Shown: positions 6,026 to 25,547 of the stretch, piece by piece | How the letters are laid out: every line of letters starts with the position of its first letter | Numbering within the stretch: the first letter of the stretch is position 1 | Source of the DNA: Chitinophagales bacterium | Lineage (GTDB): Bacteria > Bacteroidota > Bacteroidia > Chitinophagales > Saprospiraceae | Length of the DNA stretch: 64,000 bases | Assembly (NCBI GenBank): GCA_026928325.1 | Contig: JAIXKS010000032.1 | Coordinates: forward strand, 105,879-169,878 | Direction of reading: 5' to 3' | Position numbers and translations under genes: made by a program | The notes under the pieces: model-generated | Seen by the model: only the letters and a program-made list of their open reading frames with translations | Told to the model about the DNA's origin: nothing | The model's database searches: none

Positions 6026-8365
6026 TTATTCCCATATCAAACGATAACTCAACACCGGAAGTATTTCCAATTGAGGATAATAAATTAAATCCTGCTTCAA
6101 AAAATCATAAGACCGATACATAATAGTATTGTTATTGTTTACATTTTGGATATCTAGCGACCAAACGTGGCGCAATCGGCTCGTGACCTTTTTTCTATCA
6201 TATACTATCCGGAAGTCCAGCCTTGCATAATCCTTATTTTTTATAGACAAACTACGGTCAAAATCATAGAGTTGATCTAAAGAAGTAGCACGCATATTGA
6301 TCCAAGGTTCAAATTGTCCACCTCTATTGTGAATGGCAGCACTAAGGATTAATTTTTGTACTTTTTCTGTTTTAGATAAATATCTTTCGTAGCTCGCACT
6401 TAGATTGGCTATCGTTTTATAATTGTATCTACCGTCATAATCTCCGGTTATCCTTTGAGCTTCTCTATTTCTATAAGTAGCAGAAAATATCGATAGATTA
6501 TAACCAATGGTCCAGTTATGGTTGCTATAAGGATACGTTCTAAAATGATAAAACTCAATGCCTTTTGTCGAGGCTGTTCCTGTACCGTCTGGAATCCACA
6601 TCGGGCTCAATAATTGATCATATCCCAAATTGGAACCATTAAATGCGGATGAATAACTCTTACTTTGCCCTTCATAGACAAACTTAGCAACATCCCATAG
6701 ATGCGAATAAAACAGATTTCCTCCTATAGAACGATGATCGGCTTCGTATTTACCACTCAATTGCACATGTCCAGACTTGATTCTTACGGATTGATATGGA
6801 CCTACAATGTATCTTAAATCAGTATAATCCTGAAGCGAAGAAAGGCGTGAAGACAATCCTAGAGACACCTTATTGGACAATTTCCAATCTAAGGCTACTG
6901 CTGGCTCAATGGTAAATTCCTGAGTCAAGTCATCATACATTGTTCCTATACCTAGTACATAATGCCACTTATTTAAAGGACTATTTTCTAGCTGCACATA
7001 TGGATAAAGGCTAAAATAAGATTGTTTGATTAACGCTCCATTAATGCGGTTTTCATCTATATGATAATTTGCCCGCAACCCAGCACTCCATTTGAATGTA
7101 GGTAAATCCCACTTGAATTGATTGTGAAATGACCATAATCCCTTTTTGATTTCTTGATCGTCAGCATGGTCAAAATTGGTATTTTGCTTAAAATAATCAA
7201 GCGTATATTCTTCCCTATTATCTTGCCTTGAGGAAGCAATCAAAGTCGCTTTATAGCTAAAATTGTGGTTTTTTTGCCAAATAAACTGGCTACCTACGAT
7301 ACCCAATTTGCTCTTATAGGTGATATGCTGCAAATCTTTAAATCGCTCCGGCTGATCCGTTGAGTCTATACCTGTAAAGTAGTTATGACTTGCTCCCAAG
7401 GTAGCAAAAACCTTTAAATGGACCTTCTCCGATTTTAACAATTCGCCAAAAGCGCTTAAATCTTGATACCCTATTTTTTCATTGCCGAAGTCGATTCCAA
7501 ATTGATTTAACAAGCCTGTAAAACTATATCGATAGGACGCATAAACGTTTTTCCCACGAATATTTGTGCCCAATCCGCCTTCTAGACCAATCAAATTGAG
7601 ATCTAAATAAGAATGCATCGATGATGCCATCTTCATATCTGAAACGCCAGACATGATATTGCCATAGGATACATTTGCCGGGCTTGCTTCAAAATGGTAG
7701 TAATCCAAGACAGCGCCATTCAAGGCATTGACACCACCGGCATAGTTTGTCGCTAAATCATTGGCTGTGCCGGCATTTGACAGGTGATTTGGATTGACAA
7801 TGTCTGCTCCGAATAATTGCCATCGTGCTGCTTCGGGTGGCATACCCCGATAGACAATACTATTAGCACCATCATTAGCCGTCGAAAAACCGGGATATCG
7901 GATGATTATCCGGGAAGGATCTTGAAAAGAGGCTGGCATCGTTTTAAATTGGCGTTGCGTCATGGTTAAATCTCCCATGCGATAAGCATCCTCATGAATC
8001 GTCACGTGAGCCAAAGCTTGAACTTCCTGAGCCAAAAACACATCCACATTTAAGATTGCATCTTCGGGAAGATCCAACGTCATATAGCCGGTATAACCCT
8101 CATAATAATAGCTGATATCGTATTTTCCAGCCTTCTGAAGATGGATTTCATAATATCCCAGGCTATCGGATTCGGTTTGTATGACTGCGAAACTATCCTG
8201 CGAAACGGATATCATGGCTAAAGGTGCTTGAGTTTTACTTTCCTTGAGTAAAACCCTTCCTTTTATGGTTTGACCTATTCCTTGCACGGATATACAAACG
8301 ACACACAAAAGCAACCCAAGAAACTTACGGAGACTATGTAATGCTACACCTCGAACTCGAATCAT
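6026..8365 (-). CDS. TonB-dependent outer-membrane receptor with carboxypeptidase-regulatory-like domain
   Basis: The ATG at 8365 gives a basic n-region and a hydrophobic core (FLGLLLCVVCISVQGIGQ), a good signal peptide; a TTG 24 nt further upstream is less convincing. Residues about 35-115 form the carboxypeptidase-regulatory-like domain (IKGRVLLKESKTQAPLAMISV, later GYYEIHLQKAGKYDISYYY). A plug domain follows (PGFSTANDGANSIVYRGMPPEAARWQLFGADI), then a long beta-barrel of alternating residues ending in an aromatic strand (VLSYRLIWE). It imports a large or metal-chelated substrate with TonB energy. It lies just upstream of, and in the same direction as, the isomerase and MFS genes, which may handle the same compound. 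Confidence 0.88.
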   Translation of the reverse strand: MIRVRGVALHSLRKFLGLLLCVVCISVQGIGQTIKGRVLLKESKTQAPLAMISVSQDSFAVIQTESDSLGYYEIHLQKAGKYDISYYYEGYTGYMTLDLPEDAILNVDVFLAQEVQALAHVTIHEDAYRMGDLTMTQRQFKTMPASFQDPSRIIIRYPGFSTANDGANSIVYRGMPPEAARWQLFGADIVNPNHLSNAGTANDLATNYAGGVNALNGAVLDYYHFEASPANVSYGNIMSGVSDMKMASSMHSYLDLNLIGLEGGLGTNIRGKNVYASYRYSFTGLLNQFGIDFGNEKIGYQDLSAFGELLKSEKVHLKVFATLGASHNYFTGIDSTDQPERFKDLQHITYKSKLGIVGSQFIWQKNHNFSYKATLIASSRQDNREEYTLDYFKQNTNFDHADDQEIKKGLWSFHNQFKWDLPTFKWSAGLRANYHIDENRINGALIKQSYFSLYPYVQLENSPLNKWHYVLGIGTMYDDLTQEFTIEPAVALDWKLSNKVSLGLSSRLSSLQDYTDLRYIVGPYQSVRIKSGHVQLSGKYEADHRSIGGNLFYSHLWDVAKFVYEGQSKSYSSAFNGSNLGYDQLLSPMWIPDGTGTASTKGIEFYHFRTYPYSNHNWTIGYNLSIFSATYRNREAQRITGDYDGRYNYKTIANLSASYERYLSKTEKVQKLILSAAIHNRGGQFEPWINMRATSLDQLYDFDRSLSIKNKDYARLDFRIVYDRKKVTSRLRHVWSLDIQNVNNNNTIMYRSYDFLKQDLIYYPQLEILPVLSYRLIWE

Positions 8366-8470
8366 AAAAATTCCTTTTGCTGCCTTCAATAATTTAGCAA
8401 TTCAAGCTTGAAAGAAAAAACATAAAATTGCCTTACAAACCACTATTATGCTGCCGAATAAACGTCCGAT

Positions 8471-10048
8471 TTAATTTGGAATAATCTGAAATTCAGTCCT
8501 TCTATTTTTAGATCGACACGCTTCATCTTGATTTGCTGCACATCCTTCTACCGGCTTTGAAAAGCCATTACCGATGATAATAAACCTATTCTCCGGCATA
8601 TTGTATTGTTGTTTGAGATAATCCGCCACCGCTTTTGCTCGCTTTTGCGAAAGAATGACATTGGATTCAGAACTACCGACATTGTCAGTATTTCCTTCAA
8701 TTCTAATCTTAGCATTAGCAAAACTCTTTGCTAAATCGGCAAATTGCAAATCAATAATCGTCTTGGCATTTTCGTCCAAGTTATAACTTGCAGTTGGGAA
8801 GTTTATACTTACCGGCTTCGAAGCAATTGCTTCTGCTGAAACTTCCTTTACTGTTGTCTTATTAAACTCTTTAGACTTTTCAGCATCATATTGCGGTTCC
8901 TTTAAATTGTCGCTAGCTGCTAAAATTGCACCTGTATAGATGACGGAGCGCCATGCCGGAGCAATTTTTGGAGCATCGCCGGTTTCAACAAATTTTTTGG
9001 CCATTTTTTCATATAAATCCTGGCCTTTTTGACCCTTATATGCAGAGTTTAGTCCGAAAAAATTGACATTATCACCATGACCGGTCAAATAGACATTTTC
9101 CATCATGCCGATGGCATCGTCAATGGTCAAACTATTGGCTTCAGCCAGATATCTTGCCGCCTTATTGCGATTTGATTCATTCGCATTGAGCTCTGCAACG
9201 GCCTTCATCCATCCTTCGTATAAGCCATGAAACATGTTTTTCTTCTCTTGAATAACGTTTTCGCTGGCGAACATGATGCCTCCCAAAGTATGAGACTGAT
9301 CCTTGGTCGTCAACAAAATCTTTGAACCCGGAACATCGGCTGTTGCCAATAAATCATCCGGACTCCACACCACAGCAGCATCCACATCGTCGGTACGGAA
9401 GAGTTCGGCAGCTTTTAGATTATCACTTGTAGGTACGACTTTTACGTCACTGTATTTCAATCCTGCGGCTTCTAGTGTATTATTCAACAATGTTTGAGCC
9501 GGAGAAGGCACAGCTACTGCTACTCGTTTTCCTTTGAGGTCATTGGCCCGATTGATGCCTCTTTTTACAATAACGGCATCGCCACCACGCGACCAATCCG
9601 TCTGTAAAAATGCCAAAGGTTTAAAAGCATTGATATCGTCTGCTGAAGTAAATAGAGGAAAGGCATCTGCGGTTAATACCAAAGCATCGTATTCTCCTGC
9701 CATCCATCCATTCATCGCATTCAGTAGGTCATTTTCTATTTTAAAATCGACTTTAAATCCATAATCCTTATAGAATCGGGATTGTGTATTGGCTGCTGCC
9801 CCTTCATTGTAATACAAACCAGGAGCAAATCCACCCCAAGTCACTAACTGTACTCTCAAGGTATTAGGATCTCTCTTCCCCTTCTTTTGTGAAGTATTAT
9901 TATCTGAGTTGCTTTCTTTCTCAGCCTGATTTTTAAGGTCTTGCCCTAGGTTGGTATTGTTAAGGATATATTTTCCACCAAAAAAAACACCGGCAAGGAT
10001 GAGTAATGTTATCAATAGTTTTGAAAAACTCGTTAATTTAGTTGCCAT
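8471..10048 (-). CDS. Membrane-anchored substrate-binding protein fused to an OmpA domain
   Basis: The 525-residue product has an uncleaved-looking N-terminal membrane segment (LLITLLILAGVFFGGKYIL), a charged linker, a periplasmic substrate-binding domain of the nitrate/sulfonate ABC type (about residues 65-385; VQLVTWGGFAPGLYYNEG, LKGKRVAVAVPSPAQTLLN, DVDAAVVWSPDD), and an OmpA peptidoglycan-binding domain (about 415-525; IRIEGNTDNVGSSESN, LSQKRAKAVADYL, KNRRTEFQI). No ABC permease or ATPase lies nearby, so the binding domain probably senses rather than imports. It is the third gene of a minus-strand operon with two coiled-coil proteins (gaps 30 and 92 nt). The fusion would bind a ligand, the inner membrane and the cell wall at once. 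Confidence 0.85.
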   Translation of the reverse strand: MATKLTSFSKLLITLLILAGVFFGGKYILNNTNLGQDLKNQAEKESNSDNNTSQKKGKRDPNTLRVQLVTWGGFAPGLYYNEGAAANTQSRFYKDYGFKVDFKIENDLLNAMNGWMAGEYDALVLTADAFPLFTSADDINAFKPLAFLQTDWSRGGDAVIVKRGINRANDLKGKRVAVAVPSPAQTLLNNTLEAAGLKYSDVKVVPTSDNLKAAELFRTDDVDAAVVWSPDDLLATADVPGSKILLTTKDQSHTLGGIMFASENVIQEKKNMFHGLYEGWMKAVAELNANESNRNKAARYLAEANSLTIDDAIGMMENVYLTGHGDNVNFFGLNSAYKGQKGQDLYEKMAKKFVETGDAPKIAPAWRSVIYTGAILAASDNLKEPQYDAEKSKEFNKTTVKEVSAEAIASKPVSINFPTASYNLDENAKTIIDLQFADLAKSFANAKIRIEGNTDNVGSSESNVILSQKRAKAVADYLKQQYNMPENRFIIIGNGFSKPVEGCAANQDEACRSKNRRTEFQIIPN

Positions 10049-10071
10049 ATATTATAAGAATTTGCTCATTT

Positions 10072-11079
10072 TTATTTAAATAAATTATCGTATTGATTCG
10101 TAGAAGATTCATTTCTCAATTCTGGTTCTGCCATTGACTCATTGATATCTAATATCTGCTCTTTCAATAAAGTATCCTTTTCACCGCCCAATAGTAAGGA
10201 AATACTTTCATTTTCCCATTTTTCGAGCATTGCCAGACCTTCTTCTTCAAAAATACCATTTTGTAAATCTATGGATTGCATAAAACTCTGTGATAAATCC
10301 ATAAATCGCTCCATTTCTCCAACTTTCTGGCTGACATCCTCAGCTATCATTTCAAGTGAAGCGTCAAACATCGCCTTTTTGTCAGGATCTCCCTTGATGA
10401 CTGACATAGCCGATTTAATCGCAGAATGACCTGCCATGATCGCTTTTCGTTCCTGCTCTTTAACATGAATTTGGTCTTGAACATCCTCGACTAGGACTTC
10501 AGAATTTTCATACATTTTGTTGAGCACTCGGTAAAGCACATCCATTTTTTTGTACAAATCCTCTAATTTCATATTGGAATCCTGCAATCGCCCGGCTTTT
10601 CTCGTTTTTAAGATCACATGGGCCTGTTTGTTGGATTGGGCAGCCTCGCTAGCCATATTGAGATTGGTATTAATCTCCTTTTTGTTATTTAATATCAACT
10701 CTTTCAATTGGTGCATTTGCCCTCGTAGCGAAGCGATTTGTCGGTTCATCTTCTTCAGATTGAGTTTCATATCTTCGATGTAGGACCTCAATATGCCCAT
10801 AGGATCTATTTCTACAAACAAGCTCGTCAACCATCGCATCGCACTTTGATACATATAACTGATGAGAGTTCTTGTTTTACTATCTAGCGCCGCAAAGATA
10901 ATTGTACCTAAAACCAACAACGATACTATCGCTCCCGTTTGCGTCGAAACAAAAGCAGCAATAGCACCTATAAAGGTTAATGTCAAGTATAGGATACCAC
11001 CGGATAGCAACCCTAAAACTACTAATCCCAATATACCTTCAGGTCTAGACCAAAATGATTTTGTCATTTTTTTTGACAT
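10072..11079 (-). CDS. Membrane-anchored coiled-coil protein, PspA/ESCRT-III-like
   Basis: The ATG at 11079 (MSKKMTKSFW) is preferred over a TTG 12 nt upstream. Two hydrophobic segments lie near residues 15-37 and 40-60, then a short amphipathic stretch, then a long all-helical, Lys/Glu/Gln-rich region (residues about 90-310: RSYIEDMKLNLKKMNRQIASLRGQ, KLEDLYKKMDVLYRVLNKMYE). The MGILRSYIEDMK to LRGQ part resembles the start of PspA/IM30-type helical hairpins, which remodel stressed membranes, but here tied to the membrane. Middle gene of the operon. No enzymatic motif is visible; function in envelope maintenance is inference. Confidence 0.7.
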   Translation of the reverse strand: MSKKMTKSFWSRPEGILGLVVLGLLSGGILYLTLTFIGAIAAFVSTQTGAIVSLLVLGTIIFAALDSKTRTLISYMYQSAMRWLTSLFVEIDPMGILRSYIEDMKLNLKKMNRQIASLRGQMHQLKELILNNKKEINTNLNMASEAAQSNKQAHVILKTRKAGRLQDSNMKLEDLYKKMDVLYRVLNKMYENSEVLVEDVQDQIHVKEQERKAIMAGHSAIKSAMSVIKGDPDKKAMFDASLEMIAEDVSQKVGEMERFMDLSQSFMQSIDLQNGIFEEEGLAMLEKWENESISLLLGGEKDTLLKEQILDINESMAEPELRNESSTNQYDNLFK

Positions 11080-11171
11080 CTGCTCTATCAATTAAAACTC
11101 AAATGTACGGCTTCAATACAAAAATATCGTAAATAATGGCCGTAAAATTGTCCATTATTAAAAAATACATA

Positions 11172-11849
11172 TTAAATATTCTTATTTATCTTCTCTATAT
11201 CTGATTGGATTTGTCCTGTGACGTAATGGTAAGAAGCCATAAATTGCTTATTGGTTAACTCTATTTTTTGAACTTCCTCACTAATCTCTTTTTTTAGTTC
11301 TCCCATTTGGGTATTCATGGTCTCAAGTTCCTTATTGAGATTTTCGATCATCTTCTTTTTATCAACGACACTTTTTTCTAATTTTTCTATCGAATCTACG
11401 CGAGCTTGGATTTGCTTACCCTTTTGGTTTTCAAGCGCTTCCATAAATTTCTTTTGCTCCCCGACTAAGATATTCATATAATACTCTGCACTATCCAGCA
11501 GTTTGCGCTTATCCAATCCCATCGTCTTGGCCATTTCAAATGCAGATTTGTACCGCATCGTTTCATCTGCGATCACATTTGAGATAGAAAGCAAAGAGTT
11601 TTTATATTCAAGATAATCAAAACCTTCAATATTATTTTGCTCTAACGCATGCATCAGAATTTGGATATGCTTTTCGTTATATCCTGTCGAATCTTGCGCT
11701 TCAGAAGTAAAAACGGGCTGTCCGGAAGGTTTTTTCACCTGCTCGACAGTCGATGACACCTCGGTTTTTTGCGTCGTATCTCCAGCCGCACCACTTTCAG
11801 TGACGATAAAAAGTCCTTTTATTCTTTTTAATAAATCCTTATTTTCCAT
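11172..11849 (-). CDS. Soluble coiled-coil protein of the SBP-OmpA operon
   Basis: The 225-residue product starts MENKDLLKRIKGLFIV, then has a disordered Thr/Ser/Lys-rich linker (residues 20-50), a compact helical part (residues 60-120) and a long coiled coil (about 130-210; heptad-like KLEKSVVDKKKMIENLNKELETM). No signal peptide or membrane segment, so it is cytosolic. It is the first gene of the operon with the PspA-like and SBP-OmpA proteins, and probably partners with the former. A -7-like box (TATATTTG on the minus strand, 11928-11935) lies about 80 nt upstream without a clear -33 box. Confidence 0.7.
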   Translation of the reverse strand: MENKDLLKRIKGLFIVTESGAAGDTTQKTEVSSTVEQVKKPSGQPVFTSEAQDSTGYNEKHIQILMHALEQNNIEGFDYLEYKNSLLSISNVIADETMRYKSAFEMAKTMGLDKRKLLDSAEYYMNILVGEQKKFMEALENQKGKQIQARVDSIEKLEKSVVDKKKMIENLNKELETMNTQMGELKKEISEEVQKIELTNKQFMASYHYVTGQIQSDIEKINKNI

Positions 11850-11940
11850 CTATGTATTAAAACATTTAGATCGTTAAAAAAACTCCCTTAAACGAGCATT
11901 TATCGACGAAATTAATTATTTTTAGTACAAATATACACAT

Positions 11941-13026
11941 TTATCCAATGTTAACATCAGGTTCTTGTTGGCTTAAGCAATGAAAACTACCCAATCCCCA
12001 GATTATATCCACCGAATCAATCCCTACGACCTGTCGATCTGGAAAACATTCCTCTAAAATTTCGAGGGCTTCCTCATCATTTTTATCATCTCTAAACGTA
12101 GGTACAATGACTTTTTCATTCGAAATATAAAAATTGGCGTAAGATGCGGGAAGCTGTTCTCCTTCATAAATCACCGGCTTAGGCATAGGTAGCGTTACGA
12201 CATTGAGCGATCGGCCATCTTGCAACTCCATGCCTTGCAGTAACTTCAGATTCTGTCTTAAAATGTCATAATTTTCTTCCGACTTATCCTTTTCTATGAC
12301 GGTGACGACGGTATCTTCATTGACAAATCGGGTTATATCATCGATATGTCCGTCTGTGTCATCTCCGATGATGCCCTCTTCCAGCCACAATATGTGTTCA
12401 ACACCATAATACTCGATGAGGTATTGCTCGATTTCATATTGGCTCAAATGTGGATTTCTATTTTGATTCAATAGGCAAGACTTCGTCGTCAGCAAAGTGC
12501 CCTTGCCGTTAAACTCCACACTACCGCCTTCCATGACGATTTTAGGGTAAAAAACGGGTATATTCAGCTTTTGCCCTATCAAAGTCGGGATGTTATCATC
12601 CAAATCATAAGGCGGATATTTGTCGCCCCAGGCATTATAACCCCAATCCACGATCGCTTTCGAACTATTATCTTTATGGATCAAAAACGCCGGTCCATGG
12701 TCTCGACACCAAGCGTCATTGGTCGGATGGTAGTAAAAAACGATGTTGTCCACCAATGCATCTAAATCCTTTACCTGCTTGGCATAGGGACTATTTACGA
12801 TTTTGTCAATGGCAAAGTGATGCATAGCACCATCGTTGACATTGATGCAGACCCGCTGATGATCGGCGATCTGGAGTATAAACTCGGCATAAGGATTGTA
12901 AATGGTATCAATCTTACCGGGCCAAGAGGCTTCTTTATGTGGCCATGAGAGCCATAAAGCAACCTGACGATCAAACTCCGCCGGAAAATAATACCCCAAC
13001 TCTCTAGGCGTAAAATCAATCTTCAT
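11941..13026 (-). CDS. aguA: Agmatine deiminase
   Basis: The 361-residue product converts agmatine to N-carbamoylputrescine and ammonia in the cytoplasm. It belongs to the PPADI/guanidine-modifying superfamily: the N-terminal PAEFDRQVALWLSWPH, the substrate-contacting NDAWCRDHGPAF, VMEGGSVEFNGKGTLLTT, the catalytic His in GDDTDGHIDDITRF and the nucleophilic Cys (C350) in GLGSFHCLSQQEP are all present. It overlaps the upstream aguB by 11 nt, so the two are translationally coupled. Together they form the plant-like two-step route from agmatine to putrescine. Length and motifs are normal. Confidence 0.95.
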   Translation of the reverse strand: MKIDFTPRELGYYFPAEFDRQVALWLSWPHKEASWPGKIDTIYNPYAEFILQIADHQRVCINVNDGAMHHFAIDKIVNSPYAKQVKDLDALVDNIVFYYHPTNDAWCRDHGPAFLIHKDNSSKAIVDWGYNAWGDKYPPYDLDDNIPTLIGQKLNIPVFYPKIVMEGGSVEFNGKGTLLTTKSCLLNQNRNPHLSQYEIEQYLIEYYGVEHILWLEEGIIGDDTDGHIDDITRFVNEDTVVTVIEKDKSEENYDILRQNLKLLQGMELQDGRSLNVVTLPMPKPVIYEGEQLPASYANFYISNEKVIVPTFRDDKNDEEALEILEECFPDRQVVGIDSVDIIWGLGSFHCLSQQEPDVNIG

Positions 13027-13891
13027 CGATATATCTTTTGGTTATAGGTTGATAACTATCTATCCTTCGATCGCGCAAAAATGGCCAGTGAATGCGAAAT
13101 TCATTGGATTGCTTCAGGTTGACCTCAACGACTTTCGTTTCTTCTTGATCATGAGATGCCAAATACAGCAATTTTCCTTGACCATTGGCTACAAAAGAAC
13201 CGCCCCAAAACTTCATCAATCCATCTTGTTCGTACCCTACTCTATTGACGCTGACTACAGGCACGCCATTCGCTACAGCGTGAGATCGCTGGATAATCTG
13301 CCATGAATCATATTGATCGCGATTGGTTGCTTCATCTTGTGAGGTTGCCCAACCTATAGCTGTTGGATAAAACAAAATTTCGGCACCCATCAAAGCGGTT
13401 ATTCTACTGGCTTCCGGATACCATTGATCCCAACAGATCAATACACCAACCTTGCCATACCGTGTATCGAACACTTTATACCCTAGATCTCCTGGCGTAA
13501 AATAAAACTTTTCATAAAAGGCGGGATCGTCCGGAATGTGCATTTTGCGATATTTACCGAGATAACTACCGTCTGCATCTAAAACGGCCGTAGTATTGTG
13601 ATATAATCCTTCCGCGCGCTTCTCAAACAAGGAAGCGATGATGACTACATTTAGTGACTTAGCCAAGGCACCCAAGGTATCCGTAGATGGTCCGGGAATA
13701 GCTTCTGCTAACTCAAAGTTGTCGTAATCTTCGACATCACAAAAATAAAGAGACGTAAATAATTCTTGCAAGCAGATAATCTGTGCACCATCGTGAGCTG
13801 CCTTTCGGATTTCGCGAATCGCTTTGTCCATATTCGTTTTTGGATCCTGAACGCAAGACATCTGCACAAGGCCTATTTTTACTATCGACAT
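13016..13891 (-). CDS. aguB: N-carbamoylputrescine amidase
   Basis: The 291-residue product is a carbon-nitrogen hydrolase (nitrilase superfamily) that releases putrescine, CO2 and ammonia from N-carbamoylputrescine. The catalytic triad is visible: E43 in CLQELF, K116 in KYRKMHIPDDP and C153 in VLICWDQWYPEA. The motif HIPDDPAFYEKFYFTPGD is characteristic of the AguB branch. It is the first gene of the aguBA pair and overlaps aguA. The upstream region holds a -7 box. Confidence 0.95.
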   Translation of the reverse strand: MSIVKIGLVQMSCVQDPKTNMDKAIREIRKAAHDGAQIICLQELFTSLYFCDVEDYDNFELAEAIPGPSTDTLGALAKSLNVVIIASLFEKRAEGLYHNTTAVLDADGSYLGKYRKMHIPDDPAFYEKFYFTPGDLGYKVFDTRYGKVGVLICWDQWYPEASRITALMGAEILFYPTAIGWATSQDEATNRDQYDSWQIIQRSHAVANGVPVVSVNRVGYEQDGLMKFWGGSFVANGQGKLLYLASHDQEETKVVEVNLKQSNEFRIHWPFLRDRRIDSYQPITKRYIDED

Positions 13892-16127: not shown

Positions 16128-18434
16128 TTAATAATATTTCTTCTGTTTCAAAAAGTCTTTCAATGTAATTGTCGTTATGTCCAAACCTTTTGCTTTAATT
16201 TGAAGTCCGTTGTCAGATGTTAGCATAATTGGGTTTTCGTTTTTGTATTTCAATGCTACGGACAAAATAAAGTTGTCAGGCGATTTTTTGTTAAAGTCGT
16301 CTGGAAGCAAGGTCAAGTCTGCCCTGTCCATTTTGAGATTTCGTTTGTCAAAACTATCGTTGATTTGTTTGATTGCTCTATGAACGTTTTTCTTTTGTTC
16401 TTCGGTCAATGAAATTTTCAAATAGTCCAATTCATCAATGACTTTTGCAGATAAAACGATTTGATATTGTTTGTCAATTTTTGAAATGATGTCGGGATAA
16501 TCAACAAAAACATTCGTGTCAATTATGTAAATGTTTTCCTTGTCTTTTTTGATTTCCTTTTTCGGTTTCTCAAATTTTGAAAGGTCTATTTTATCAACGA
16601 TTTTTAGAACTTGTTTGGACTGGGTATCATTATTCTCAGGGCTTTCAACGTGAATTGATTCTGCTAAGTTTTTTTTATTAATGCCCTTATTATAAGTCCC
16701 TAACGAATTATTCATTAGACTTTGATTAGGCACTCCCAACTCACATTTTGAGATAAACTCATCGACTAAACCTTTATAAGGTTTGACAATGCTATATGCT
16801 TTATCTAATAAAATTAAGGTGCAATATCTTGATCTACTGGTTGCTACGTTAAACCTGTTTAACTTAAATGAGAAACTTGGGCTACCTTCCGAATATGTAA
16901 AATAGAAACAAAAATCAACCGTGAGTCCTTGAACGCCATCTACAGTATTAACAACAATTCGATTTTGTGTATCATTAAATTTAAAAAGCAAATTATCTCT
17001 CAACAATTTCACTCCTTTTTTAGTAGAAGATAAAAGGGCTATTTCGAAATTTGGATTAAGATGAAGCAATGTAGTTACTTCTGTATAAATGAAATCAAAC
17101 ATCTTTTTCAAATCACTTGAATCGTAATAGAACAAAGAACTCCCTCCTTCATTGTTGTATATAGCCGAAAGTTTATTTAAAACTTGGTTGTCTTTTTGTA
17201 TTTCTGATTTTGATTTAAGGCTATTCTCGTAAAATGTATTTGTTTGCCTACAAGCATTTTCAGAAAACCTATAAGTGGTTGTAAATCGAAATTTAGGACA
17301 GCTATGAGTTGATGCATAATAAGAGAATGAATCTAGCATCAAATCAATACTATTAGAAATCCTATTTGGATTATCTTGATTGACAACAGGTGGAAGTTGT
17401 AAAGGGTCTCCAACCAAGATTACTTTTTTACCCAATAATTTTGCGATTGCAATAGTTCCTAAAAAACATTGACTTGCCTCTTCTAAAATCACATAATCAT
17501 AAATAGGACTGGAAATTTTCTCTATTGCCAAACCACTCATTTTATAAAACGTAGTCAGTAGAATATTACCCTCGGTCGGCAGAAAATCCTTTGGAACTGA
17601 TTTCAAACCTTTTACTTCTTTTGACTCTTCCAATGTAAGGTTTGACTTATATACGACCTCTTTATTTGAATCGGAAATTGAAAAATATTTTTTAGCAAGC
17701 TCAAGAAGTGACCTATTGGCTAATGTAGCTACCAATACAGATTTTCTGTCTTTAGAAAATTCAGCAATTAACCTTGAAATAAAAAATGTTTTACCTGTTC
17801 CGGGAGGGCCTTGAATTATAATTGTTTCCTCATTGTGCAGTTCATCTTTATACCGTCCTATTAATTCTAATGAATTTTCGATATGAGTGGGATTAAAATT
17901 ACCTAAATCATATTTACTCAATAAGATATCATCAACAATACTTGATTTTATATTGTTTTTAGTAACCTGTATTAGGTTATAATAATATTTCAAAGGTGGA
18001 TCAGAAATACCAAAAACTATTTTATCTTCTTTTTGTAATACGTTTAAGAAATCAACATCAACACTATTAAATCCAACATTAAATTTCCCATTCGTTTCAT
18101 GGTAATAGACACCGTAACACTCAGAAGATGATAACACATCATTTTTTCTATAGTGACTATATGTGTTCTCTTTAAAAGCACTCTTAAACACCTCAGTCGT
18201 TTTAGGCTTTGTTGCGGTTAATGGAATTTTAGTTTTAGGTAAGTTTTCTTTAGAAAATGAAAAGATAACCTGATTTCTCAATTCATCAATATACTCAAAC
18301 GCACCTATATACAATTCTCCTTTATTTAACAAATCAATACACTTCGAATCAAGATACGCTTTATAATCCGACAATATCTTTTGTATCTCTCTATTGTAAA
18401 ATTCTATTTGTTGTTCTCTTCTAAGTGATTTCAT
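16128..18434 (-). CDS. SF1 (UPF1/DNA2-like) helicase fused to a C-terminal PIN nuclease domain
   Basis: The ATG at 18434 lies 2 nt after the upstream stop (TGATAATG); the TTG two codons earlier is not needed. Residues 1-190 are an accessory N-terminus. The helicase core has Walker A GPPGTGKT (209-216), motif II as EEAS (318-321) instead of the usual DEAS, motif III GDPLQLPP (342-349), TTYRF near 387, motif V VDGVQGLTVDF and motif VI NRFNVATSRSR. A charged linker leads to a PIN domain (about 634-768) with acidic residues D639 (IIDTNVF), E668 (KVIDELDYL), D720 (SPDNFIL) and D741 (LTSDNGL), all expected for an active RNase. It should unwind and cut RNA or DNA. It forms an operon with the sacsin-like ATPase; defence role is inferred. 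Confidence 0.88.
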   Translation of the reverse strand: MKSLRREQQIEFYNREIQKILSDYKAYLDSKCIDLLNKGELYIGAFEYIDELRNQVIFSFSKENLPKTKIPLTATKPKTTEVFKSAFKENTYSHYRKNDVLSSSECYGVYYHETNGKFNVGFNSVDVDFLNVLQKEDKIVFGISDPPLKYYYNLIQVTKNNIKSSIVDDILLSKYDLGNFNPTHIENSLELIGRYKDELHNEETIIIQGPPGTGKTFFISRLIAEFSKDRKSVLVATLANRSLLELAKKYFSISDSNKEVVYKSNLTLEESKEVKGLKSVPKDFLPTEGNILLTTFYKMSGLAIEKISSPIYDYVILEEASQCFLGTIAIAKLLGKKVILVGDPLQLPPVVNQDNPNRISNSIDLMLDSFSYYASTHSCPKFRFTTTYRFSENACRQTNTFYENSLKSKSEIQKDNQVLNKLSAIYNNEGGSSLFYYDSSDLKKMFDFIYTEVTTLLHLNPNFEIALLSSTKKGVKLLRDNLLFKFNDTQNRIVVNTVDGVQGLTVDFCFYFTYSEGSPSFSFKLNRFNVATSRSRYCTLILLDKAYSIVKPYKGLVDEFISKCELGVPNQSLMNNSLGTYNKGINKKNLAESIHVESPENNDTQSKQVLKIVDKIDLSKFEKPKKEIKKDKENIYIIDTNVFVDYPDIISKIDKQYQIVLSAKVIDELDYLKISLTEEQKKNVHRAIKQINDSFDKRNLKMDRADLTLLPDDFNKKSPDNFILSVALKYKNENPIMLTSDNGLQIKAKGLDITTITLKDFLKQKKYY

Positions 18435-18436
18435 TA

Positions 18437-21400
18437 TCAAAAATTATATTCATCATATAAATCTTCTTTTTCAAAAACGGACTTATAACTAATTGCTGTT
18501 TTTGTATGTTCATTGACTATAAATACAAAATGCCATTTTCCTTTTTCTTCTATATCTGCTAAAGTATTGTAATGTTCAAGACTATAATCCTTTGGCATTC
18601 TCAAAATACCAAATCTATTTTGAGGTTGAGTAAATTCTATTAAATCTTTCTGTGAGTCAAATAAATTGATTTTGTTATTTGTATAAACAGCTAATCTAAC
18701 ATTGTTTTCATTTAGTTTGTTCCAATGATGTATATCAAAAAACAGTAAACCATTTTGAGCCGAACGAACGATTATTTCGTCTGCTTCTGCTTTTAAATGA
18801 TAGCCAATATCTTCTATTTGCTCTATATCATATTCGTGTTTAATAGCTAAAAGAGCTTTAATTTTAGCTGTAGTGTTAATGTCAACCTTATTGTCCAAAT
18901 CATATTCTCCTTTGATTATCCCTTTGATAAAAGTTTTATCGTCTTCTGTAATATTACTAAACGGATTATCAGGATTATCTTCTTCTAATTCTTCTTCTAA
19001 CTCTTCATCTATTTCTTTAGCGTTCGTTTTATAAATCTCCCAAGGTGTTTTACCAAAGTCATCTTCAAGTCTGTGAATGATATCTTCATCATCCCAACGG
19101 TTCATAACATTATCAAACCAAATTTTTGTAACCTTTTCTTTTTGGATTATATCATATAAAAAGTTTGTAACTTCTCTATTTGATTTCCAATAACCTGTGT
19201 AATATATTTTGTTTTCCTCTGTATCGTAAAAAAACTCAATCTGAGTTGTAAAAACTGGAGTTGATTCATTAGGGAATACTTTCTCAATTGACTCTACTTC
19301 ATAAAAACTATATTGATTGATATTTTCAATTAATTCTTGCTCTATTTGCTGATAATTAGTATCATCAATTTTAAAAGCTAAATATCTTGCTTTTTCACAA
19401 AATGTTTCTTTGATTTCATCTATGATTCTTGGGTTTATTGGCTCAGTTTTTAATTCAAATCCATCTTTGGATAATCTTGGAACACCAAAATTATCTGTAA
19501 TAGAATAAAAATCTTGATGTAAAATTCTATCAGGATCTATTTCAAATTCATCATCAATAGAATAACATAGTTCGTCTATAGGTTTCCACTCTTGGTTCTT
19601 ATTTAACAAGAATAACTCTTTCTTTTGTTCATTTGTAGGTATATATTCTTTCAGAATTTCTACTATATTTAGCTCTTGTACTTCTTCGTATGAAATCCTA
19701 TTATCTCTTCTTTTTAGGAGTTGGATACAATGTTCTTCAGAGAGTTCTTGTCGAATACCAATTAATTCTTCAATAGATTTTTCTAATTTAAAATTGTTAC
19801 TATAATCGAATTTAGGCAATAATGACTTATCATTAATGTAGTTTGAATGCTTGAAAGAATACAATAACACAGGACTTACATAAACACCATTACAATTTTC
19901 AACGGTTTTATTGTGTTTAATAAAATGTAACATTTGATTATCACATGAATCATAAACCCTCCTGTTATTTACAATTTTTGTTGGAATAAAATACTCATCT
20001 CTTCCTTCTAACACCTGATCAAAAAATTGCTGATTATATTTCTGCACAATTGATTCGGACAGGATTGGATAACAATTAATATGGTGCTCAAAAGTAGTAT
20101 AATTTTGAATTTGACTAAGAGTATATCCTCGAGACAATAAATAATCCTTAGTTGTTTTAAATCCATGACCACCGAAAAGTAACTCTTTAATCGGTAAACA
20201 ATCAAAGTCATCAAATTTTAATTTTTCTATTATTTCGAGTTTAAAACTGTCATTAACACCTATTTTACTCAAAAGAAATTTATTTACATCGTTAGACGCA
20301 TATCCGTCATTCAAAAAAACAAACTCGTTACAGAATTCTTCATTTTTTTGCAAATCTAGCTTAGGCTTATAATTAGATGAAAAATGTACCTGATTTGGCA
20401 ATAGCCAATCTCCTTTATTTGTTTTTAACTTTAAATTATAAAGGCTATCGAAAGAAAGATTATTATCCTTTTTCTCTTTAAATAGTTTGGATAGAGTCTT
20501 TAAAATTTCAAAATGGTTTTCTCTGAAGTTGTCTTGGTGTTCTATTAAATAATCAACTTTTATTTCAAAAACTTCTTTTTTCTCCGAAAGCAATTGACAA
20601 CCAATCAACCTAAAATAATTATTCCAATCAACTACATAATTTGGTCTTTTTTCATATTCATCAGTGATTTGGTTTGGAAGATCTATTTCAGAAATAACCT
20701 CATTGATAATCGAAGTTGTTGTATAATGGTCAGAAATAAAGCACTTGTTACTTGCTCTAAAAGAGTTGTCAATGCATTTAATTTTCAGATTCTTTGAAAC
20801 TGTTTCAATTTGTTCAGATGATAGCTGGGTTTCCTTATCTCTATTTTCTTTCCAATATTTAAATATTTGTTTGCCGACTTCCAGATGCTTTGTTTCATCA
20901 TCTATAGAAGGAAGCTTCTCGATTAAGTTGCTAATTACCCCCTTTAAATCAGTAATAACTCCTAATTTTTTAAATATCTTTCTCCATTTTTCAATTTCCT
21001 CTATTTTGGAGATGATTTTTTCGGAAATGAAAGAAACCTTCGTAATGCCAATATCGTTGATTATTGATTCAATATTACTTTCATTATCAAATTCAGTCGA
21101 TAAATATGTAGAAGAAATTGCTTGATATGACAGATCTTCACTCTCAACTGATTTGCAAAGTATAAATATGTTTTTAAGGCTATTGACTACATCTTTTTCT
21201 TCTTTGAGCCTTCCCCAATTATTATATACGAACCTCCAAAAATCCAACAAGTTGATTCCAGATATTAGTAATGAATTTACGGTCTGTTCTTTACCTACGA
21301 TATTGGTTGTATAAAACGTAATTGGATCAAATTCTAAAAGTTTGAGCGAAACATTTTTTTCTTCAAGCTTTGCTAACAATTCTGAATTTATTACACTCAC

Positions 21401-23263
21401 GCCAAGAAATGAAAGTTCTTTTGGAATACCCTTATAAAGTGAAGTAAGATTTGAAAGTCTTTTATTTGAATCAATAATAACATCTTCTTTTTTCAATATA
21501 TCTTTTAATTCATCGTTTGATTGAAAGTGAGTTATAATTCGGAAGTTGTTTTCAGGAATTTTTAACCACTCTGCGAATTTTTCAGTTTTTAAAGAGGATA
21601 TTAAATTTTCTTTCCCAAAAATATAACCAAGCTCCAATTCCTTATGTAAAAAAAGATACTCACTTACCAAACCAGAACCAATATCTAAAGGTTTCCTTTT
21701 CGTACCCAAAAGTTCGAGAAACGATTGTTCTGGAATAATTTCATATAGTTTAGTTTCATCAAAGAATACTTCAGTAATTGAGTCTACCTCTCCAAGGTGT
21801 GTTGGAAATATTTTCGATTTTTCAATATTTTTAAGAAAAGACTCTCGTACCTTATCTTTAAATTGGTTTACTCCTGTTTCAAAATTAGGGAATAGACGTG
21901 TGATTTTTTTAAAATCTTTATTGAGAGCAAAAGTCTCACATGCTTTTATAAGTTGTGCTCCAGAAAAATCAGCTAATTTGAAATTATACGATAAGTTTTC
22001 AATAATATTTGAGCGGTCGAGATTCGGAATAAAATCAGCATTTACTATGTAATCAAGTTGTAATTTGGTAGATGACAAAGGTAAGTATGCGAACAAATTA
22101 ATTGGATTTTCTATCTGTTCATTTGGCACTATTATATCAATTTTAGGGCTTCTGAATTGTCTAAAATGATTTGGAATAGATTTATTGTTTTCATCAAGCA
22201 ACTCATCAATTATATCTTGGTCTTTAATAGAGTAGGTATTAGTGAATGAAACCCACTCTGAACAAATAATGTCATTTATTTTTAACTGAATAGTATTATT
22301 TCCATTATTATCTGTGATTATTTCTTTTTCAAAATCGTGTTCCTCGTTTGGTATAGTAATCTTAAGTCTTCGTAACTTATCTAAAAATATGAGAAGATAT
22401 GGGTTCTGAGATAACTCGGTTAAATATCCAATTACATCATTTTTATGAGCTTCTGAAGTAAATTCAAACGCAAAAGCTACAGGAGAATTAAAAAAGTCAA
22501 ATTGTGGTATCTCATCAATTTTGTCTATTTCATTCTGAAATACAGGCATCACTTCCCAAGGTTTGTTTTCACCGGTTTGCCTATTGAAAGAAAAACTAAA
22601 ATTACCAGAGCGAACATAAACATTGTTGGTATGACGGAACACAGATTTAAAACCTATTCCTTTATATCCAATTCTATTTGCATCAGTTTCTTTCGTCTGT
22701 TCTCCAAACAATATTCCACAAATTGAATTAAAATTGTTTTCAGTAAACAACGAACCATTATGTTTTAACAATAAATAGTTATTAAAAACCTCAAAATGAA
22801 CAGAAACCTCATTATTAAAATTATTGTTAGGATGGTCTACTGCGTTTTGAAGCAATTCGTATAAAAATGTTAAGCCTGTTGAAGCTAAGTCTCCTCTTAA
22901 CCTATCTAAAATATTCCTATATTGAGTTAGGTGATCCGGATGAATATCCCCATAAAAACTAAATTTATCTTTTATAATTTGATTACATTTTGTAAAAGAT
23001 AAAACATTGTCAAGTGAATTTCGGAATACTTTAGTACTAAGTTCAAAGTACTTCTTTTCTTCATTAAAATCTGTTGTCAAAACCGTAACTTCATGACCAA
23101 CATCAAAAAGGTCAAACATTTTTTGACTCAAAATAGAGTTGTTAGATAAATTTCTTTTATGAAGTCTCGCACTTACGTTATCCCCAACATCAAAAATTAG
23201 AAGATCATGTTCTTCTATTTTTTTTGATAATCTTAACTCGTATATATTTTCTATTTCTAACAT
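18437..23263 (-). CDS. Giant sacsin-like HATPase protein
   Basis: The 1608-residue product has a GHKL (Hsp90/histidine-kinase-type) ATPase near the N-terminus: N-box FLYELLQNAVDH with E136 and N140, and IGYKGIGFKSVF (198-209), the signature of sacsin N-terminal ATPase-like proteins in prokaryotes. Residues about 24-80 look like an S1/OB fold (VGDNVSARLHKR, then FDVGHEVTVLTTDFNEEKK and ELSTK). The next 1200 residues are helical and acidic without a recognised enzyme, with an Asp/Glu-rich patch near 1410-1450. The last 150 residues (RSAQNGLLFFDIHHWNKLN onward) resemble an alpha/beta module. No transmembrane segments. The helicase-PIN gene follows after 2 nt, so both are one unit. Large ATPase-plus-nuclease pairs are typical of antiphage systems. 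Confidence 0.85.
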   Translation of the reverse strand: MLEIENIYELRLSKKIEEHDLLIFDVGDNVSARLHKRNLSNNSILSQKMFDLFDVGHEVTVLTTDFNEEKKYFELSTKVFRNSLDNVLSFTKCNQIIKDKFSFYGDIHPDHLTQYRNILDRLRGDLASTGLTFLYELLQNAVDHPNNNFNNEVSVHFEVFNNYLLLKHNGSLFTENNFNSICGILFGEQTKETDANRIGYKGIGFKSVFRHTNNVYVRSGNFSFSFNRQTGENKPWEVMPVFQNEIDKIDEIPQFDFFNSPVAFAFEFTSEAHKNDVIGYLTELSQNPYLLIFLDKLRRLKITIPNEEHDFEKEIITDNNGNNTIQLKINDIICSEWVSFTNTYSIKDQDIIDELLDENNKSIPNHFRQFRSPKIDIIVPNEQIENPINLFAYLPLSSTKLQLDYIVNADFIPNLDRSNIIENLSYNFKLADFSGAQLIKACETFALNKDFKKITRLFPNFETGVNQFKDKVRESFLKNIEKSKIFPTHLGEVDSITEVFFDETKLYEIIPEQSFLELLGTKRKPLDIGSGLVSEYLFLHKELELGYIFGKENLISSLKTEKFAEWLKIPENNFRIITHFQSNDELKDILKKEDVIIDSNKRLSNLTSLYKGIPKELSFLGVSVINSELLAKLEEKNVSLKLLEFDPITFYTTNIVGKEQTVNSLLISGINLLDFWRFVYNNWGRLKEEKDVVNSLKNIFILCKSVESEDLSYQAISSTYLSTEFDNESNIESIINDIGITKVSFISEKIISKIEEIEKWRKIFKKLGVITDLKGVISNLIEKLPSIDDETKHLEVGKQIFKYWKENRDKETQLSSEQIETVSKNLKIKCIDNSFRASNKCFISDHYTTTSIINEVISEIDLPNQITDEYEKRPNYVVDWNNYFRLIGCQLLSEKKEVFEIKVDYLIEHQDNFRENHFEILKTLSKLFKEKKDNNLSFDSLYNLKLKTNKGDWLLPNQVHFSSNYKPKLDLQKNEEFCNEFVFLNDGYASNDVNKFLLSKIGVNDSFKLEIIEKLKFDDFDCLPIKELLFGGHGFKTTKDYLLSRGYTLSQIQNYTTFEHHINCYPILSESIVQKYNQQFFDQVLEGRDEYFIPTKIVNNRRVYDSCDNQMLHFIKHNKTVENCNGVYVSPVLLYSFKHSNYINDKSLLPKFDYSNNFKLEKSIEELIGIRQELSEEHCIQLLKRRDNRISYEEVQELNIVEILKEYIPTNEQKKELFLLNKNQEWKPIDELCYSIDDEFEIDPDRILHQDFYSITDNFGVPRLSKDGFELKTEPINPRIIDEIKETFCEKARYLAFKIDDTNYQQIEQELIENINQYSFYEVESIEKVFPNESTPVFTTQIEFFYDTEENKIYYTGYWKSNREVTNFLYDIIQKEKVTKIWFDNVMNRWDDEDIIHRLEDDFGKTPWEIYKTNAKEIDEELEEELEEDNPDNPFSNITEDDKTFIKGIIKGEYDLDNKVDINTTAKIKALLAIKHEYDIEQIEDIGYHLKAEADEIIVRSAQNGLLFFDIHHWNKLNENNVRLAVYTNNKINLFDSQKDLIEFTQPQNRFGILRMPKDYSLEHYNTLADIEEKGKWHFVFIVNEHTKTAISYKSVFEKEDLYDEYNF

Positions 23264-25086: not shown

Positions 25087-25136
25087 GCATTGTTTTGTCC
25101 GTGTTGTCGAGACGACAAACACTAATATTAAGCTTA
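25087..25136. repeat. Hairpin-bearing direct repeat, copy 1
   Basis: A 50-nt stretch contains the stem TTGTCG AGA CGACAA (25103-25117) and shares most of its bases, including the ends GGCAT and TTAAGCT, with a copy at 25498-25547. The two copies bracket the DUF433 gene. Confidence 0.65.
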
Positions 25137-25497: not shown

Positions 25498-25547
25498 GGC
25501 ATGGTTTGGCTCGTGTTGTCGAGACGACAAGCACAAATTTTAAGCTG
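25498..25547. repeat. Hairpin-bearing direct repeat, copy 2
   Basis: Contains the stem GTG-TTGTCG AGA CGACAA-(G)CAC (25513-25534). Same orientation and layout as copy 1 at 25087-25136. Confidence 0.65.

Follow-up and report, generated by a model that had tools for sequence, protein, structure and literature searches.

The window analysed here is a stretch of 64,000 nucleotides from a Bacteroidota genome of the order Chitinophagales. It encodes on its minus strand a pair of adjacent genes, one for a giant GHKL/sacsin-like ATPase and the other for a superfamily 1 (SF1) helicase fused to a C-terminal PIN nuclease domain (hereafter helicase-PIN). The two genes and their subdivisions are as follows:

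18437..23263, minus strand: giant GHKL/sacsin-like ATPase of the TmtA (Tiamat) type, 1608 residues (open reading frame; PADLOC model PDLC03972, E-value 5.4e-105)
22634..22876, minus strand: GHKL/sacsin nucleotide-binding region of the ATPase, residues 130-210, with the N-box ELLQNAVD, HNG and GYKGIGF (profile matches, invariant residues)
18437..19039, minus strand: C-terminal tail of the ATPase, last 200 residues, whose similarity follows the helicase clade (Mantel tests; model and fold comparison)
16128..18434, minus strand: UPF1-like SF1 helicase with C-terminal PIN nuclease, 768 residues (open reading frame; profile matches)
16607..18434, minus strand: helicase part, comprising an N-terminal beta domain, two RecA-like domains and a variable linker
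16128..16606, minus strand: PIN cassette, residues ~610-768, starting just ahead of the DLSKFEKPKKEI motif and running to the stop codon (blastn edges, pairwise table, approximately unbiased (AU) tests)

The ATPase and its helicase-PIN partner

An earlier reading of the window from its letters and open reading frames (the original prediction) had described a 1608-residue ATPase with GHKL motifs, followed 2 nucleotides later by a helicase with a C-terminal PIN domain whose four acidic residues are intact, in AT-rich DNA. This description stands. E136, Q139, N140, A141, D143, G199, G202 and G204 are invariant across all ten ATPases compared, with G170 altered in one of them; the PIN residues D639, E668, D720 and D741 are conserved in 13 of 13 PINs, and the Walker A motif and the motif VI arginine in 11 of 11 helicases. 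The gap of 2 nucleotides between the ATPase stop and the helicase-PIN start holds provided that the ATG is used, giving 768 residues; an upstream TTG would give 770 residues and overlap the ATPase stop. The G+C content of the pair is 0.285-0.31 versus 0.39 and 0.42 in the flanking core blocks; the neighbouring PdaC-domain gene is similarly poor in G+C (0.27), unlike the DUF4143 gene (0.40).

Profile searches relate the ATPase to sacsin. The P_loop_sacsin model (NF047352) matches residues 132-217 above its cut-off (E-value 4.6e-18), Pfam SACS reaches 28.5 bits over residues 128-221, under its cut-off of 32.8, and a profile of the ATPase family has sacsin as its best match among solved structures (E-value 1.3e-9). 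The TmtA models of PADLOC match all ten ATPases scanned, the window's included: PDLC03972 is the best model for the window, L017, L029 and L054, PDLC03970 for L005, L007, L008 and L026, and PDLC03967 for L006 and L049. The match of PDLC03972 to the window ATPase falls into three stretches, the best of which places residues 108-775 on positions 19-678 of the 1302-position profile. Judged by these matches, the ATPase half is a member of a named family, Tiamat TmtA.

The helicase-PIN protein matches Pfam AAA_11/AAA_12 and, at its C-terminus, PIN_4 (E-value 5.1e-20, residues 638-760 of the 770-residue form). Against solved structures the helicase profile finds SMUBP-2 (E-value 4e-28), SEN1 (4e-20) and UPF1 (9e-19), with DNA2 also among the matches; a fold comparison includes SMUBP-2, SEN1 and UPF1 but does not set them apart. 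With its AAA_11/AAA_12 core, intact SF1 motifs and UPF1, SMUBP2 and SEN1 as its nearest relatives by sequence, we class it as a UPF1-like SF1 helicase. A scan of PHROGs returned superfamily-type matches for the helicase and no match for the ATPase, and the libraries used returned only superfamily-level matches for the helicase-PIN gene. The original prediction did not recognise the pair as a named system and proposed a search against defence models; that search assigns the ATPase to TmtA, so that the statement no longer applies to this half, but it remains true of the helicase-PIN and of the pair, which match no named system in the libraries used.

Starting from the helicase-PIN, we gathered 11 distinct loci (the window, L005, L006, L007, L008, L017, L026, L029, L030, L049 and L054; L008 was also met as G1021), ten from Bacteroidota and one, L026, on an IMG/VR contig. 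At all 11 an ATPase gene of this family lies directly upstream on the same strand at a spacing of -14 to +3 nucleotides, in agreement with the proposal that the pair might be conserved as an operon. Contig ends truncate two of these ATPase genes: that of L005 lacks its start, and that of L030 is present only for its last 224 residues, which are 25% identical to the window's tail over 209 residues (E-value 4.9e-9).

Separate inheritance of the front, the helicase and the PIN

The principal result, which had no counterpart in the original prediction, is that parts of this pair appear to have been exchanged. The helicases fall into clades A (window, L017, L054), B (L005, L029) and C (L006, L007, L008, L026, L049), plus L030. 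We compared nine loci, leaving out L030 and L049, which yields 10 pairs within and 26 between clades. Helicase identity is 69.3% within versus 33.7% between clades; in contrast, PIN identity is 79.6% within and 79.7% between. In seven of the nine loci the nearest PIN comes from another clade or another protein architecture; for L006 it comes from the same clade, and for L026 a PIN of its own clade ties with one of another architecture. At the DNA level, blastn finds a block of ~435-598 bp over the PIN in the listed pairs across clades and architectures. Some pairs additionally have a helicase block of 53-151 bp in common, and for L005 and L026 the similarity extends over most of the ATPase front. 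In 10 of the 11 comparisons with the window, the PIN block has its 5' edge at window positions 16604-16618; in the one with L005 this edge is at 16593. AU tests on PIN DNA reject the helicase clades A, B and C (p 0.0002, 0.0009 and 0.00006). On these comparisons the PIN is inherited independently of the helicase.

Furthermore, two proteins with unrelated N-termini, of 385 (L009) and 361 residues (L010), end in a PIN cassette 86-91% identical to the window's. The nuclease tail of the helicase thus seems to be passed around among genes that are otherwise unrelated. The N-terminus of the L009 protein has a weak HD match (E-value 0.024), and the protein belongs to a gene run (L009:772-10522) with an MkoA-like SF1 helicase, a 1487-residue DarT-domain protein and a macro-domain protein. 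In L010 (405-1490) the part N-terminal to the cassette contains a GQDPYP motif, which is typical of uracil-DNA glycosylases; that part has one glycosylase match (E-value 1.5) and nothing in Pfam, and the gene is followed by a DUF4041/T5orf172 gene. Separately, a distant relative of the cassette occurs in another conserved gene run, carried by two genomes of the class to which the window belongs and by a Polaromonas plasmid (L048:4160-12262, L055:3934-12819, L103:2116-11410). The run comprises a large first gene (1216-1376 residues; an SF1 helicase in L048), a PIN_4-type protein (740-821 residues), a protein of 212-367 residues and an AAA-type ATPase.

A second boundary lies within the ATPase. 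For instance, the helicase-PIN proteins of L008 and L049 are 97% identical, whereas BLASTP at an E-value limit of 1e-5 aligns their ATPases over no more than the C-terminal ~400 residues (39%), with DNA identity climbing to above 0.9 at the gene junction. Similarly, the L026 ATPase is 62% identical to that of L005 over residues 1-1340, and its last ~210 residues match L006 (63%). From the ATPase tail through the helicase, its DNA is 78% identical to L007, and its helicase is 72% identical to that of L006, 79% to L007 and 38% to L005. Helicase clades B and C each pair with two TmtA models (PDLC03970 and PDLC03972, and PDLC03970 and PDLC03967, respectively).

Mantel tests over ten loci, with the tail defined as the last 200 residues, show the same pattern: helicase distances correlate with those of the tail (r 0.73, p 0.0002) versus r 0.11 (p 0.21) for the ATPase front, 0.14 (p 0.15) for its middle and 0.10 (p 0.22) for the PIN, and front and tail are themselves uncorrelated (r 0.05, p 0.34). 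The coupling is present for segments in the last 300 residues (r 0.61-0.73) and gone at 200-400 residues from the C-terminus (r 0.07). Closeness on the DNA could add linkage between tail and helicase; the PIN is equally close to the helicase and shows none. Judged by these distances, the front is inherited independently and the tail jointly with the helicase. A model of the tail and a fold comparison give a weak likeness to PD-(D/E)XK.

Upstream of the pair, a stretch in L008 (4794-4934), L049 (5919-6060) and, in part, L007 (4289-4360) is 87-89% identical despite the differing ATPase fronts. This stretch might represent a common promoter or a site at which recombination takes hold.

Distribution and genomic neighbourhood

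The ATPase profile matches 20 of 287 genomes of the class sample at an E-value of 1e-12 or better. Besides the window's genome and G363 there are 18 of these, from nine of which the loci were fetched, their ATPases being recognised by this profile. In two of them (L090 and L091) an ATPase recognised by the family profile and an SF1 helicase form one polypeptide, which has no PIN match, and in L089 the ATPase is followed by a helicase N-terminus that ends after 292 residues near the contig end. In the remaining six the fetched sequence, for some of them a short contig, contains no helicase-PIN match. Thus, the ATPase also occurs in other settings. Sacsin-type ATPases were also seen in L018 (854-9260), where a short piece resembling an SF1-helicase C-terminus lies downstream beyond two genes that we take for an IS21-type transposase pair, and in L019 (264-12335) and L020 (5331-16104), inside gene runs with SMC-like and JetD-like proteins, presumably akin to Wadjet operons.

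The pair is accessory and not core. None of nine genomes of the same genus (two of them less than 90% complete) has an ATPase match at an E-value of 0.001. The congener contig L098 shares the block at window positions 6026-13891, L097 and L099 share its end genes up to their contig limits, and L100 shares only its last two genes, which are 76-87% identical. Over the 8.8-10.9 kb that L097, L098 and L099 extend beyond the point matching 13891, none of the nine window genes tried from this side was matched; L100 stops 267 bp beyond the corresponding point.

A close PIN (E-value limit 1e-10 in the class sample and 1e-15 elsewhere) occurs in 5 of 395 genomes of the class, 3 of 395 of the phylum and 4 of 298 of the order, and in four further orders in 3 of 291, 1 of 46, 1 of 12 and 1 of 148. 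These samples overlap, the window's own genome or the centre genome is part of every count, and two of the genomes counted (G671 and G1162) have only a distant PIN belonging to another system. The phage collection yielded no PIN match and the plasmid collection one distant PIN match; the helicase matched 29 plasmid records, all below 60% identity and none covering 80% of the query. Scans of IMG/VR yielded one contig with the pair (L026) and, besides, four weak PIN matches (25-30%); one helicase scan yielded six helicase-only matches among the matches listed, with the L026 contig not among them.

Ten neighbour proteins at related loci were scanned with PADLOC; they were picked by eye, so the scan is no enrichment test. 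Seven of the ten, at five loci, matched: AbiEi and AbiEii at L006, GmrSD/HEC-06 at L008, PDC-M21A and B at L054, an Argonaute at L029 and a type III restriction enzyme at L017. The Argonaute gene ends 25 nucleotides ahead of the ATPase, and apparently forms one transcription unit with the ATPase and helicase-PIN genes (L029:2059-11012). In L017 (7200-18376) the pair comes after the restriction enzyme and a DUF4268 gene in the same gene run, with gaps of 2-7 nucleotides, and could therefore belong to a restriction operon. The neighbours scanned at L007, L026 and L049 had no PADLOC match; that of L026 is nonetheless a GmrSD_N protein in Pfam (E-value 2e-21). Tiamat itself is described as frequent in defence hotspots of Pseudomonas islands in PMC12629846.

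A proposed mechanism and its alternatives

The reading that we favour, and hold to be somewhat probable, is that of a two-gene, Tiamat-type anti-phage defence system built of exchangeable modules, in which the front of the ATPase senses, its tail docks and the helicase-PIN cuts nucleic acid. The original prediction, by which the ATPase senses infection and controls a helicase that cuts RNA or DNA, is thereby supported in part, through the tightly spaced conserved pair, the defence genes next to several loci, the lack of the ATPase in congeners and the low G+C content. The ATPase front, comprising the GHKL domain and a fast-diverging body, would recognise infection; a nucleotide-driven change would then pass to the matched UPF1-like helicase through the tail, which is probably a PD-(D/E)XK-like domain that has no activity and serves in docking. 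The latter would bring its C-terminal PIN to nucleic acid, more likely RNA, and PIN cutting would stop the growth of the phage or of the cell, the latter an abortive outcome. SMUBP-2, SEN1 and UPF1 act on or bind RNA, and UPF1 acts together with PIN proteins in mRNA decay. RNA is preferred as the substrate because the nearest helicases by sequence are these three, and because of this partnership of UPF1; the nucleases of the nonsense-mediated mRNA decay (NMD) pathway are PIN domains according to PMC3710099. The sequences themselves show the anatomy, the intact active-site residues, the tight conserved pair, the TmtA membership of the ATPase, the independent inheritance of the PIN and of the ATPase front, the joint inheritance of tail and helicase and the defence neighbours at several loci, whereas sensing, docking, RNA as the substrate and the abortive outcome are inferred. 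The original prediction placed the pair beside mobile or defence-like genes; for the window itself this is weak, the neighbours being an ADP-ribosylglycohydrolase, the PdaC-domain protein and the DUF4143 ATPase (a PDC-S01 candidate); it is better supported at the related loci.

We give about even weight to a more specific proposition, namely that such an immune system diversifies by recombining three parts within and between its two genes, an exchangeable ATPase/sensor front, a docking tail inherited together with the UPF1-like helicase and an exchangeable PIN effector cassette of ~475 bp, and that this cassette also jumps onto the ends of unrelated proteins as a portable effector.

Among the alternatives, it is possible, though on the unlikely side, that the PIN cassette cuts DNA, in the manner of FEN/XPG-like enzymes acting on flaps or nicked DNA, and that the pair destroys invading DNA, with all else as in the favoured reading. 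The carriers of the cassette lend this some colour, the one in L010 by its GQDPYP motif and the one in L009 by adjoining the DarT-domain, macro-domain and SF1 helicase genes, as does DNA2 among the structural matches of the helicase. However, the glycosylase label of L010 consists of that motif and the one marginal match, the best helicase matches are to proteins of the RNA-acting or RNA-binding kind, and the Pfam match of the nuclease is PIN_4.

A fairly unlikely alternative is that the ATPase restrains a constitutively toxic helicase-PIN in the manner of an antitoxin, so that addiction, and not defence, maintains the locus. The invariably first and adjacent ATPase gene, the intact nuclease residues and the locus on an IMG/VR contig are all consistent with this; but antitoxins are normally small, an ATPase of 1083-1686 residues with a freely exchanged front looks more like a sensor, and both ATPase-helicase fusions have no PIN match.

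We consider it improbable that the PIN merely evolves slowly and has not been exchanged at all. At four-fold sites many PIN pairs come close to saturation (pooled identity 0.36-0.39 versus 0.29-0.30 expected), and yet they are ~80% identical in protein, pointing to strong purifying selection, and AU tests on PIN protein are weak (p 0.020, 0.041 and 0.146 for clades A, B and C). Such constraint, however, acts alongside exchange: PIN divergence does not rise with that of the helicase, the tests on PIN DNA reject all three clades, and slow evolution offers no account of the fusions to unrelated proteins in L009 and L010. Moreover, the PINs of the window and L009, despite their unrelated N-termini, are 91% identical in protein and 88% in DNA and share 83% of four-fold sites (35 sites).

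Finally, a housekeeping helicase-nuclease for RNA surveillance or stress, akin to PhoH2, which also combines helicase and PIN in one protein and whose model matches weakly, is barely credible given the low G+C content, the defence neighbours, the opposite domain order, the ATPase-free congeners and the rarity of the close PIN in the class.

Tiamat, a single-gene system reportedly presented by Millman et al. in 2022, has to our knowledge no published mechanism. The ten scanned loci share its TmtA models and intact GHKL motifs, and differ in the helicase-PIN gene, which comes next at each of the 11 loci of a set that was itself collected by the helicase-PIN; hence, we file them as a variant with a TmtA-family ATPase and not as Tiamat itself. 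The eukaryotic NMD module (UPF1 with SMG6 or the PIN protein Nmd4) likewise joins a UPF1-like helicase to a PIN, and the Nmd4-Upf1 complex is the subject of a paper (PMC11463774); here, however, the two are fused in one bacterial protein accompanied by a separate giant ATPase, and in sequence the PIN is only weakly linked to SMG6 (E-value 0.25). PhoH2 has the opposite domain order and a helicase of another family, and its model (NF053827) scores 13.9 bits against a cut-off of 680 (E-value 0.021). Mokosh (MkoA) and further large defence proteins with an SF1 helicase share the SF1 core (MkoA E-value 6.8e-24), but the match is partial, its best stretch placing residues 309-540 on positions 786-1069 of 1112, and the L009 helicase is a far better MkoA match (2e-98).

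According to PMC11090510, Type II/III CoCoNuT systems place a UPF1-like SF1 helicase (CnuH), predicted to act on RNA, beside a partner NTPase, which would make them an analogous precedent; the partner there, however, is an McrB GTPase with coiled coils. The main text of that paper has no mention of 'sacsin', and the 'HSP90' and 'PIN' passages found stand in the reference list. Pfam, run on five genes of the window (the pair plus three neighbours), detects no CnuB/McrB GTPase with a coiled coil. In a library without most subscription journals, we found no paper on Tiamat with TmtA, and neither the constant helicase-PIN partner nor the tail-helicase coupling nor the portable PIN cassette in print; the ATPase family itself is known.

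A helicase-nuclease partner inherited with the ATPase tail would give Tiamat a testable mechanism of tail docking, helicase motor and PIN cutting, with the exchange pattern pointing to the sensor, interface and effector parts ahead of experiment. The apparent trading of the PIN suggests a modular construction of such defences from interchangeable parts, and a nearly identical nuclease cassette at the end of proteins that are otherwise unrelated would lend itself naturally to the role of a portable effector. If the proposed reading is true, the bacterial fusion resembles the UPF1-PIN pair of eukaryotic mRNA decay, and could serve as a simple model in bacteria in which to study the control of a PIN nuclease by a UPF1-like helicase.

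Elsewhere in the window, a palindrome around gtgttgtcgagacgacaa occurs in two intergenic copies (25095-25125 and 25508-25536) downstream of the DUF4143 gene.
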